A DNA stretch of 64,000 bases. It comes from Paenibacillus sp. sptzw28 (lineage in GTDB: Bacteria; Bacillota; Bacilli; Paenibacillales; Paenibacillaceae). Positions 2-2,933 of the stretch are shown here, piece after piece; position 1 is the stretch's first letter; every line of letters begins with the position of its first letter. The notes below the pieces were generated by a model. It searched no databases. It had not been told where the DNA came from and worked only from the letters and a program-made list of their open reading frames with translations. The position numbers were made by a program, and so were the translations under genes. The DNA lies in the NCBI RefSeq assembly GCF_019550795.1, contig NZ_CP080545.1, positions 1,755,501 to 1,819,500 on the forward strand, given 5' to 3'.

Positions 2-1084
2 CGCGATATGCTGCTGAATTCCCATCGTTCGTTTCGCATGGTAAAAAATAAATACGAGAATGTACTTCAGCACATGGACAGTGGCATCGCGATTTTTGAC
101 GGCGATGGGATCTTGTCCTTTATTAATTTACAGATGGCAAAACTACTCGACATCCCCCGCAAAACGCTCATCGGCTGCAGTCTCCGGGAAATACTTGCAC
201 ATACACAATTAAGGCGGGGTACCAAACGCATTGTACTTCGGCTCTATAAAGAAATGTTTTTGCGAAGGAGCCGGTATTTGGAGTTTCAGGATGCGAACGG
301 TCGGCATTTGCTGGTGACGGTTACGTACGGAGATCAGCTTGACGGCGATTATTTGTTCAGCGTTAAAGATGTTTCGGAGTATAAACAGATCGAGCAGAGC
401 GCCTATCAGAACGATAAACTGGCCATGCTTGGGAAAATCGCGGCTTCCATCGCCCATGAGATCCGAAACCCGCTTACATCGATAAGAGGGTTTATTCAAC
501 TGCTTCGCCCACATTTGCTGCAGCTCGGCAAAGAAGAGTACGCGCGTATTATTCTCGCGGAAATCGACAGGGCCAACGATATTATCTATGAATTTCTCAA
601 TTCATCGAAGCCTTCGGCTCCGATGAAACAGAAAGTACCCATAGCCTCTTTGCTAAAAGAGGTTATTCTGCTCTGCGAAAGCGAAGCGCTCATGAAAGGC
701 TCTCAAATTCAGTTCGAGTCATATGACGAGGAGCTGACGATCTCGATCGATGTGAAGCAAATCAAGCAAGTTATTATCAATATTGTCCGCAATGCGCTCG
801 ATGCGATCGAAGAGCTTAAGGACGAGCGGAACGGCCGCATCGATATCATTACGAGGCGCGACGGGTCATACGCGGAGATAACGATCCGGGACAACGGTAA
901 AGGGATGGACCATTCCACGAAAGCCAGGCTGTTCGATCCTTTCTTCACGACAAAGGCAGCCGGTACGGGGCTAGGGCTTTCGGTGAGCTACCGTATCATC
1001 CGAAACCATGGAGGGACCATACGGGTGTCGAGCAGCATCGGAGAAGGAACGGTGTTTAATATCTATTTGCCATTGGTGGAATAA
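2..1084 (+). CDS. PAS-domain sensor histidine kinase (5' end outside window)
   Basis: Cytoplasmic part of a sporulation-kinase/NtrB-like sensor kinase. Counting from the first Met in the window (base 8), a PAS domain spans about residues 15-125. The dimerisation domain has the phospho-acceptor H150 in AHEIRNPLTSIRGF. An HATPase domain follows, with N box (IVRNALDAIEE), G1 (DNGKGM), F box (FDPFFTTK) and G2 (GTGLGLSV). The frame is open to the window edge (codons CGC GAT precede the Met) and there is no ribosome-binding site in front of that Met. The gene therefore probably starts upstream, perhaps with membrane segments. No response regulator follows, so it may feed a phosphorelay or an unlinked partner. 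An 8-bp hairpin sits just after the stop. Confidence 0.85.
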   Translation, partial: RDMLLNSHRSFRMVKNKYENVLQHMDSGIAIFDGDGILSFINLQMAKLLDIPRKTLIGCSLREILAHTQLRRGTKRIVLRLYKEMFLRRSRYLEFQDANGRHLLVTVTYGDQLDGDYLFSVKDVSEYKQIEQSAYQNDKLAMLGKIAASIAHEIRNPLTSIRGFIQLLRPHLLQLGKEEYARIILAEIDRANDIIYEFLNSSKPSAPMKQKVPIASLLKEVILLCESEALMKGSQIQFESYDEELTISIDVKQIKQVIINIVRNALDAIEELKDERNGRIDIITRRDGSYAEITIRDNGKGMDHSTKARLFDPFFTTKAAGTGLGLSVSYRIIRNHGGTIRVSSSIGEGTVFNIYLPLVE

Positions 1085-1090
1085 AGGATT

Positions 1091-1114
1091 AGAATCGGGT
1101 TAGTGACCGATTCT
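1091..1114 (+). terminator. Hairpin after kinase stop (weak terminator)
   Basis: Perfect 8-bp inverted repeat (AGAATCGG at 1091-1098, CCGATTCT at 1107-1114) with an 8-base loop, 6 bases after the kinase stop codon. No T-run follows, so it may be an inefficient terminator or an mRNA 3' end structure. Confidence 0.4.
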
Positions 1115-1124
1115 GACGCAAAAT

Positions 1125-1376
1125 GCCTCTTAAAAACTATGATGACAACTTATCGAGAGGAGCCGGGAATTCCACTTGCGTCGCTGTTGAAACCGGGAAT
1201 TCTTATTACACTATGCGGTGTATTCCCGGTTTCAAAGGCGATCGCCAAGTCTGAAAGCTTTCCATAGGAAAGCTGCTTCGAAAGCATCAGCCTAGTGGAC
1301 TTCCCTTTTCCTCATTGGAACGTCATCATAAATTCAGAGGCAACAGCAATCAGAAATCGGGGCAACCCGATTTTTT
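1125..1376 (+). ncRNA. Candidate structured RNA with intrinsic terminator, unclassified
   Basis: The 334-base gap before pepA folds as one unit. A long interrupted closing stem pairs 1125-1130 with 1336-1341, 1139-1146 with 1322-1329, 1157-1161 with 1309-1313, 1165-1169 with 1301-1305, 1171-1175 with 1295-1299 and 1183-1186 with 1288-1291. It encloses a multi-branch loop with four hairpins. These are a perfect 12-bp stem (1189-1200/1222-1233, with inner ACAC/GTGT), GGCG-AT-CGCC (1237-1246), 1256-1263/1267-1274 and 1274-1278/1282-1286. A GCAA-loop terminator follows at 1354-1376. I find no T-box, lysine, cobalamin, SRP or 6S signature. It could be a free small RNA or a cis-acting leader of pepA. 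The fold is by hand and covariation is untested. Confidence 0.5.
1354..1376 (+). terminator. Rho-independent terminator upstream of pepA
   Basis: Perfect 8-bp stem AAATCGGG/CCCGATTT closed by a GCAA tetraloop (1354-1373) and followed by T residues. It ends about 40 bases before the pepA start, so it either ends the structured RNA at 1125-1341 or works as an attenuator for pepA. Confidence 0.8.
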
Positions 1377-1418
1377 GTGTTGAGAGAACAGAAAAGAGAG
1401 TAGAGGAGATGAATTATC

Positions 1419-2933
1419 ATGAGTGTTCAGTTTACATATGGTGCGGATAACGGAGAATTCGATACGATCGTTTGTTTTGTCAGCAGCGAGGAGCTTAAGC
1501 GGGATGGCGCTTCAGAGGCCGAATGGGTCCACCCTCAGCTGGACGAAGCGCTCCGGGATCATTTTGCAAGGAAGCTGTTCAAAGCCGAGCCCAAAGAGAC
1601 CCTTGCCCTGTCCACGCTTGGGCTGCTTCCGGCATCCTATGTCGTATACGTTGGAATCTCCCACGCAGGCTTATCCCCGGATGAACTAAGAGATGCAGCG
1701 ACTGCGGCCGCGAAAGCGGCAAAACGGCTCAATGCCAAGGCTGTGAAACAGATTTTGCCGAGAGAGACCTGCACCGGTTCTCAAGAATATTCAATCAGTC
1801 AAGCGGCTCAAGCGATGACCGAGGGATATACGCTCGGGTTATTTGCGCGCAGGACGGAGAAGAAGGACGATGAGAGAAAGCAAACAACGGTGCAGACGGT
1901 GGCCTTCGCGCCTCCAGGCGAATTCGCCGGATCCGAGCAAGCCGGCGGCCAATGGGAAGCGGGCATCAGGCGAGGCGTTATTTTTGCCGAATCGGTTGTA
2001 TTCGCACGGGACTTGACGAATTTACCGGGAAACCGGCTTACACCGGAGATGCTTGCGGAGGAGGCGGAAACGCTTGCCCGGACTTATGGCCTCGACTGTG
2101 AAGTAATGGACGAATGGTCTGCCGCAGAGCAAGGGATGGGCGGCCTGCTCGGGGTCGGACAGGGAAGCGTCAACCCTCCTCGAATGATCGTTCTACATTA
2201 TGCCGGCGCAGCGGACAATGAAGAAACCTGGGGACTCATTGGAAAAGGCATTACATTCGACACAGGAGGTATTTCGCTTAAGAAAGCGGAAGGAATGGAG
2301 GAGATGATATCCGACATGGGGGGAGCGGCGGCCGTACTGGGCGCTATGCGCATCATCGGCGAGCTCAAACCGGCAGTGAATGTCGTTGCCGTCATCCCGA
2401 CCGCCGAGAATATGCCTTCAGACAGGGCGCTCAAGCCGGGCGATATTCTTAAGACCATGAGCGGTCTTACCGTTGAAGTGGTGAATACGGATGCAGAGGG
2501 GCGGCTTGTACTGGCAGACGGTCTTACGACCGCGATCCGCCGCGGGGCGACTAAGCTTATTGATGTGGCGACGCTTACCGGCGCAGTCGGCGTCGCCCTC
2601 GGCAATGTGGCAACGGGAGCGGTCACAAACGATGAAATGCTGCTTCAACAGGTTATTCTCGCTTCGAAGCGGGCAGGCGAACGGATATGGCCGCTCCCTT
2701 CATACCCGGAGTACCGCAAACAGCTCGACAGCGATGCGGCCGATCTTAAGAATATCGGCGGCCGTCTCGGCGGGGCGATTACGGGCGGGCTGTTTATCGG
2801 CGCTTTCTCCGAGGAGCGGCCGTGGGTCCACCTGGACATAGCCGGTACGGCGTGGCTTGAACGCGACAGGTCCTGGGAGTCGAAGGGCGGAACGGGCGTA
2901 ATGGTACGTACGTTAGGAGAACTATTAGTTTAA
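1419..2933 (+). CDS. pepA: Leucyl aminopeptidase (M17 family)
   Basis: Cytosolic two-metal aminopeptidase that removes N-terminal residues, leucine preferentially, in peptide turnover. At 504 residues it has normal M17 length. The family signature NTDAEGRLVLAD starts near residue 356. The metal-binding lysine and aspartate lie in GKGITFDTGGISLK (near residue 280), and SDMGGAAAVLGA follows, as in the catalytic domain of PepA. The N-terminal domain (residues 1-180) is the variable macro-like domain. ATG at 1419 has AGAGGAGATG upstream at good spacing. The gene follows the structured RNA and terminator at 1125-1376, which may regulate it. Confidence 0.95.
   Translation: MSVQFTYGADNGEFDTIVCFVSSEELKRDGASEAEWVHPQLDEALRDHFARKLFKAEPKETLALSTLGLLPASYVVYVGISHAGLSPDELRDAATAAAKAAKRLNAKAVKQILPRETCTGSQEYSISQAAQAMTEGYTLGLFARRTEKKDDERKQTTVQTVAFAPPGEFAGSEQAGGQWEAGIRRGVIFAESVVFARDLTNLPGNRLTPEMLAEEAETLARTYGLDCEVMDEWSAAEQGMGGLLGVGQGSVNPPRMIVLHYAGAADNEETWGLIGKGITFDTGGISLKKAEGMEEMISDMGGAAAVLGAMRIIGELKPAVNVVAVIPTAENMPSDRALKPGDILKTMSGLTVEVVNTDAEGRLVLADGLTTAIRRGATKLIDVATLTGAVGVALGNVATGAVTNDEMLLQQVILASKRAGERIWPLPSYPEYRKQLDSDAADLKNIGGRLGGAITGGLFIGAFSEERPWVHLDIAGTAWLERDRSWESKGGTGVMVRTLGELLV

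Follow-up and report, generated by a model that had tools for sequence, protein, structure and literature searches.

A dispersed palindromic repeat upstream of pepA in Paenibacillus sp. sptzw28, probably mobile and lying beside terminator hairpins

The 64,000-nucleotide stretch of Paenibacillus sp. sptzw28 DNA analyzed here (the window) carries a strongly folding segment between a sensor histidine kinase gene and pepA. With good though incomplete confidence, this segment can be assigned to a dispersed DNA repeat, palindromic and non-coding, whose behavior is that of a non-autonomous transposable element of miniature size and whose active lineages insert at intrinsic-terminator stem-loops. The copy belongs to a sequence family that is dispersed and occurs as bounded units, and a minority of copies lie next to hairpins more often than background. 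In one genome the locus-specific hairpin stood on both sides of the element at 8 of 12 sites, and a single comparison with an empty site was obtained. The repeat is one of the Paenibacillaceae and neighboring families, measures about 200-230 bp when the insert termed module B is left out, and is probably mobile. The sequence-only reading had described the segment as an RNA; its membership of a dispersed repeat family, and the presence of terminator hairpins at the site in relatives lacking the element, went beyond that reading.

Results

Organization and predicted fold of the segment upstream of pepA

The features of the locus are as follows (window coordinates).

8..1084, plus strand: sensor histidine kinase gene (PAS, HisKA and HATPase_c; open reading frame and Pfam), upstream of the element
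1067..1095, plus strand: promoter-like TTGCCA-17-TAGAAT, lying across the 3' end of the kinase gene
1091..1114, strand unassigned: 5'-flanking hairpin AGAATCGGGTTAGTGACCGATTCT, upstream of the element
1125..1341, plus strand: palindromic element, with outer stem GCCTCT/AGAGGC around modules A and B; the outer limits are putative and may reach both flanking hairpins
1181..1252, plus strand: module A; its conserved core reads TCGCTGTTG-(variable hairpin)-CAAAGGCGATCGC, and covariance model R1 recovers it as a held-out copy at 66.9 bits
1189..1233, plus strand: perfect 12-bp inner stem, 1189-1200 with 1222-1233
1251..1292, plus strand: module B, two-hairpin insert (GAAAGCTTTCC..GGAAAGCT and GCTTCGAAAGC), from BLASTN blocks
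1354..1377, plus strand: intrinsic-terminator-like hairpin AAATCGGGGCAACCCGATTTTTTG with T-run
1419..2933, plus strand: pepA, leucyl aminopeptidase (Peptidase_M17; open reading frame and Pfam)

The segment 1125-1376 was predicted to fold with a minimum free energy (MFE) of -109.5 kcal/mol, compared with -61.9 +/- 4.6 for shuffled sequences (z -10.5, 0 of 200 as good), and the earlier claim of pairing far beyond that expected of a spacer was thus upheld. The reverse strand folded nearly as well (-105.5, z -8.3), in keeping with a palindrome. In the predicted structure GCCTCT (1125-1130) paired with AGAGGC (1336-1341) and TATGATGAC (1138-1146) with GTCATCATA (1322-1330), and two short hairpins formed inside 1251-1292. 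The complementary blocks and the perfect 12-bp stem noticed previously were recovered, but in place of the four enclosed hairpins then proposed the MFE structure had three hairpin loops within the segment, in addition to the terminator hairpin.

No match to Rfam 15 at the curated gathering threshold was found in the whole window. The best sub-threshold match in 900-1600 was to a microRNA family (E 0.43), and the single match among 13 member loci also fell below threshold (E 0.66). The segment had been said to carry no signature of known riboswitches, T-box, SRP or 6S RNA, which agrees with the Rfam results for both the window and the member loci; a known RNA family was rejected as an explanation on these grounds. 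Group II intron RNA domains likewise had no Rfam match in the window or the 13 loci. An origin from a plasmid or phage was rejected because the window segment had no blastn match (E <= 1e-3) in either collection.

The segment belongs to a dispersed family

BLASTN of 1085-1418 against 98 genomes returned two recurrent blocks in unrelated surroundings: one, module A, covers about 1175-1252, and the other, module B, about 1251-1291. R1 was built from 28 module A copies aligned with their stems, the window copy being held out. The held-out copy (1181-1252) scored 66.9 bits (E 8e-16 in its own genome) and contained the core hairpin TCGCTGTTG/CAAAGGCGA by which R1 family members are recognized, and 7 other places in the same genome matched at E <= 1e-3.

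Matches to R1 were present in 72 of the 98 genomes and in 27 of 41 genera, with at least 36 matches in each of six genomes, G007 and G013 included, 36 being as many candidates as were scored; when four genomes were scored again with 150 candidates, their counts stayed at 25, 15, 19 and 17. The model was specific: a scan of named genomes for the core pattern gave at least 117 stretches, and among the 80 of 117 that were scored with R1 all 17 from Paenibacillus matched, compared with 0 of 63 from other organisms. In a class-wide sample of 299 genomes 27 matched, every one in the family of the window; the 20 non-matching genomes that were identified belonged to other families, and a further 252 had no match.

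At pepA, module B sits inside the palindromic element. Module B-like blocks of two adjoining short hairpins were also seen without module A, sometimes in tandem (L004, L026, L006). Tandem same-strand copies of the element, spaced at about 219-260 bp, occurred at L035, L038, L149, L386, L418 and L202, and a longer unit starting GGGGCTGTCCC / GGGGCTGTCCCATAAGTC was common to three copies in the genome of the window (L070, L071, L074).

Copies form bounded units, some between duplicated hairpins

Five recent paralog pairs in G045 and G074 shared common units of 206-232 bp. In a sixth pair (L306/L307, in G093) an identical 302 bp carried the element and extended to the contig end in L306. The G074 units ended in CAGAGTGACGAGAAACCC and GGGTTTCTCGACAGCCTA, which are terminal inverted repeats; the window copy ends at GCCTCT/AGAGGC or further out.

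A search of G074 with the unit-end pattern gave 13 matches at 12 sites, one of which (L451) had no recognized core. At 8 of the 12 sites the terminator hairpin specific to that locus was found on both sides of the unit with a direct score of at least 25, compared with 1 of 132 cross-pair controls reaching at least 24 (score 32). At L449 the inverted score nearly equaled the direct score. Outside the eight, L452 was weak and L445, L451 and L453 had no duplication, the apparent repeat at L453 (score 22) being an internal match that was not counted. Among the 213 of 223 copies whose flanks were long enough for the family-wide comparison, 21 had outer-flank direct repeats scoring at least 30, compared with 0 of 1063 mismatched pairs; tandem copies contribute to the 21, as do several of the G074 sites above.

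An empty site was found by comparison of relatives. In G003 and G014 the element lay between two terminator copies, and the counterparts in G001, G005, G012 and G018 had one terminator and no element. On visual reading the flanking hairpin pairs appeared inverted, not direct, at the G003/G014 site, at L399, at L300 and at L081/L086.

Genomic placement and neighboring hairpins

Of 223 copies sorted by crude open reading frame calls, and in raw counts, 50 had convergent neighboring genes, 99 had co-directional and 10 had divergent ones; a further 25 overlapped a reading frame and 39 were unplaced. The co-directional copies, orthologs included, occurred in both orientations (35 and 64). Matches in which the core motif was not located were left out, 10 from the placement set and 5 elsewhere.

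After removal of copies with short flanks, 189 of the 223 were available for analysis of hairpin adjacency. In 32 of these a perfect hairpin of at least 7 pairs started at a distance of 60-79 bases on the 3' side of the core (34 counted as starts), and in the 20-base bins at 100-399 the background was 3-11, with a mean of 6.7; the remaining 157 had no such hairpin at the 3' peak. On the 5' side, hairpins ended at -70 to -51 in 11 of 189. Where a 3' T-run could be assigned it mostly suited the neighboring gene (5 of 6 in class co-, 3 of 4 in class co+ and 4 of 4 convergent copies, for the right-hand gene), and it was absent in 30 of 46.

In the pur operon a copy sits between the genes purC (SAICAR synthetase) and purS, in antisense orientation, and was kept in 10 genomes (L073, L091, L093, L096, L103, L311, L316, L320, L328 and L329; genes assigned by Pfam for L073 and by flank alignment for the other nine), which suggests age or use. 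The flanks of L105 are as at this site, and the element there looks different.

The pepA upstream region in relatives

pepA was found in all 22 same-genus genomes, and in two of them R1 detected the element ahead of this gene: in G000 at 66.9 bits and in G013 at 62.7 bits. A single terminator hairpin occupied this region in three others (G019, G020 and G021), and most of the rest had, by reading, two small hairpins and a spacer of varied sequence, some with other hairpins. The promoter-like TTGCCA-17-TAGAAT was aligned without gaps in 22 of 22 (TAGAAT in 21, TAAAAT in 1). A site of this kind at 1067..1095 is found once, compared with 0.7 expected in shuffled sequences. Conservation at pepA thus concerns the promoter-like site and the hairpins, not the element.

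Since a hairpin with a T-run stands there in genomes without the element, the terminator does not belong to the element. The terminator noticed earlier was accordingly found where it had been placed, at 1354-1377, but as a feature of the site. A simple terminator scan of 1000-1450 predicted the hairpin at 1114-1091 on the minus strand, and 1354-1377 was not among its predictions. The two hairpins flanking the window copy matched each other weakly (direct 14, inverted 19, by repeat scoring applied to 217 of 223 copies after those with short flanks were dropped), and the 5' hairpin lies at a fitting distance from the core. Duplication of a terminator hairpin around the pepA copy is, from these comparisons, only suggestive, and the pair may at most represent an insertion duplication because many element-less genomes have two hairpins here.

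Transcription through the pepA copy is possible because the promoter-like site upstream is conserved, and an RNA of about 270 bases may be made from it. The succession of a conserved promoter-like site and terminator hairpins before pepA could possibly constitute an attenuated leader or a small RNA.

Changes in the inner stems are closer to those of a DNA palindrome than to those of an RNA gene

Pairing was maintained among divergent copies. In alignment A1, 94.6% of cells were paired compared with 77.7% in shuffles, and 18 of 26 pairs had double changes. In A3, a set of 82 further copies (79 distinct) that leans towards R1 because it was fitted to the model, 94.1% were paired compared with 66.0% in shuffles, 22 of 26 pairs had compensatory changes, and 10 of 500 shuffles reached its number of pair types. 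Covariation, proposed earlier as a check among regions upstream of pepA, was therefore strong among copies located elsewhere, but conservation upstream of pepA itself was limited to 2 of 22 genomes.

The kind of change in the inner stems differed from that of a riboswitch. With the invariant T.G column excluded from all three alignments, A3 contained 1311 Watson-Crick, 6 G-U, 10 A-C and 15 other pairs; A2 contained 1418, 5, 7 and 28, and A1 463, 1, 2 and 10, respectively. The SAM riboswitch control (29 sequences from related genomes) contained 656 Watson-Crick, 95 G-U, 2 A-C and 2 other pairs. Mismatches were conserved within the core, T.G and G.A in GCTGTTG/CAAAGGC.

The outer stems gave a mixed result. 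Isolated mismatches in 156 copies comprised 19 G-U, 22 A-C and 60 other pairs, compared with 5796 Watson-Crick pairs, and at the eight outer pairs of the alignments fitted to the covariance model G-U exceeded A-C (44 to 8 in A3, 59 to 9 in A2, 18 to 7 in A1). In MFE folds the G-U share of the element was 6.3% on the plus strand (7.7% with the invariant pair) and 5.8% on the minus strand, compared with 9.1% and 5.1% for SAM and 12.0% for random 200-mers; the gap between element and SAM by this measure (6.3% and 9.1%) is small. Mean MFE over 157 copies was -69.9 and -72.2 on the two strands. Among co-directional copies, orthologs included in the counts, wobble pairs were in excess on the transcribed strand (42 to 16 when 2-base flanks were required, Fisher p 0.002; 17 to 8 under the stricter requirement of 3-base flanks, p 0.18).

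Copies at orthologous positions lost pairs. In 17 orthologous pairs, for which some loci were used twice, 1357 comparable base pairs showed 256 single changes, 53 double Watson-Crick changes and 30 other double changes, a decay that is exaggerated because the first sequence of each pair served as the reference structure. As the orthologous pairs decay and the arms nevertheless covary, fixed copies appear to lose pairs and different lineages to keep paired arms. Taken together, the inner stems seem closer in their evolution to palindromic DNA than to a gene for RNA, the outer stems appear mixed, and some RNA-level constraint on the element is possible.

Discussion

The main alternative, which we consider unlikely, is that the copies form a new family of structured RNAs. 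Many loci would then produce a small RNA or RNA-stability element whose palindrome is under selection for RNA pairing. The compensatory changes in A1 and A3, the absence of an Rfam match, the G-U excess both in the outer stem of the fitted alignments and on the transcribed strand, and the promoter-like site upstream in the window would all be expected of such a family. Against it stand the inner stems (6 G-U and 10 A-C in A3, compared with 95 and 2 in the SAM control), the equal folding of both strands, the use of both orientations relative to flanking genes, the patchy presence at pepA and the loss of pairs from orthologous stems. The new small RNA suggested by the sequence-only reading was thus correct in being unclassified and highly structured, but its inner stems change more in the manner of DNA. 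A strict DNA-only reading is itself weakened by the transcribed-strand and outer-stem wobble excesses, and for this reason the DNA reading is put forward as the better of the two and not as proven. Regulation of the aminopeptidase gene, also raised earlier, fared worse: an attenuator or riboswitch-like regulator in the pepA leader would agree with a promoter-like site present in 22 of 22 genomes and with an element lying among the hairpins between that site and pepA, but the element precedes pepA in just 2 of the 22, whereas 72 of 98 genomes carry it at one place or another, and elsewhere it adjoins unrelated genes, even within the pur operon. A pepA-specific regulator was rejected as the main reading and is now improbable.

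Least probable of all is a REP-like repeat moved by a Y1 transposase of the REP-associated or IS200/IS605 type. The element is palindromic, mostly extragenic and multi-copy and has conserved core mismatches, as this would predict, but the Y1 family (PF01797), which was the family looked for in the 98 genomes, was found in 20 and was absent from G000-G015, a group in which G007 and G013 carry at least 36 matches each. Because its distribution does not follow that of the element, Y1 was rejected as the mover, and the search for a mobilizing enzyme, which covered this family, was negative. A possible link to an insertion sequence at L071 was also rejected; the frame following the longer shared unit looked like a broken transposase by eye, yet at that place the strand had no stop-free frame of at least 70 residues.

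Miniature inverted-repeat elements (MITEs) are characterized by short non-coding bounded copies, terminal inverted repeats, target-site duplication and a parent autonomous transposon. Like those of bacteria, the element is short, non-coding, palindromic and multi-copy; its bounded units came from G045 and G074, its terminal inverted repeats and flanking duplications from G074. The parent transposon was not found in a search with one end pattern in G074. Unlike MITEs, the element is most conserved at the mid-arm core and not at its ends, its outer arms vary between genomes, and the duplicated target is a terminator stem-loop whose length depends on the locus. The REP/BIME, ERIC and BOX repeats differ from the element in bacterial group and in unit, a comparison of general features and not of sequences. 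The element resembles them in folding strongly, in having many, mostly intergenic copies and in being rare between divergent genes (10 of 223, as a raw count). It is unlike them in that its arms vary while pairing is kept, and in that Y1 is absent from several high-copy genomes.

Extragenic palindromic and miniature elements are a known kind, to which this element would belong; it is absent from Rfam. Searches of open-licence PubMed Central papers with exact phrases returned no fitting description of it or of a terminator-targeted repeat. Group IIC introns target intrinsic terminators, according to the relevant passages of PMC4424553. The element differs from them in that its hairpin is duplicated, which those passages do not describe, and in the lack of an intron match in Rfam.

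In the proposed mechanism, active lineages would insert at intrinsic-terminator stem-loops: the target would be cut at either foot of the stem-loop and then filled in, leaving the element between two copies of the hairpin. Movement would depend on a recombinase acting in trans. The pepA copy presumably arrived by the same route, and any effect on pepA would come from the placement of a large hairpin in its leader. Fixed copies would then drift, and paired arms would be kept through selection on copies that still move, templated copying from arm to arm, or both. Template switching, as described in PMC8794818, can alter both arms of a stem at once with no G-U step. Such quasi-palindrome mutation is a mutation process rather than an element, and is one possible route to covarying arms.

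We propose tentatively, and at somewhat less than even confidence, that the element represents a new mobile class in which a recombinase reads the terminator stem-loop as its target and every insertion duplicates the whole terminator, so that longer hairpins give longer duplications. In that case the covarying arms would be a large natural case of RNA-type covariation arising at the DNA level. The family also carries a warning, in that covariation tests alone would yield a 'new RNA family' even though the inner stems lack the wobble signature of a riboswitch. Many genomes in its family and order carry the element in abundance, and it has no Rfam match. If recent copies truly duplicate terminators, the element would both increase the number of points at which transcription ends and displace them.
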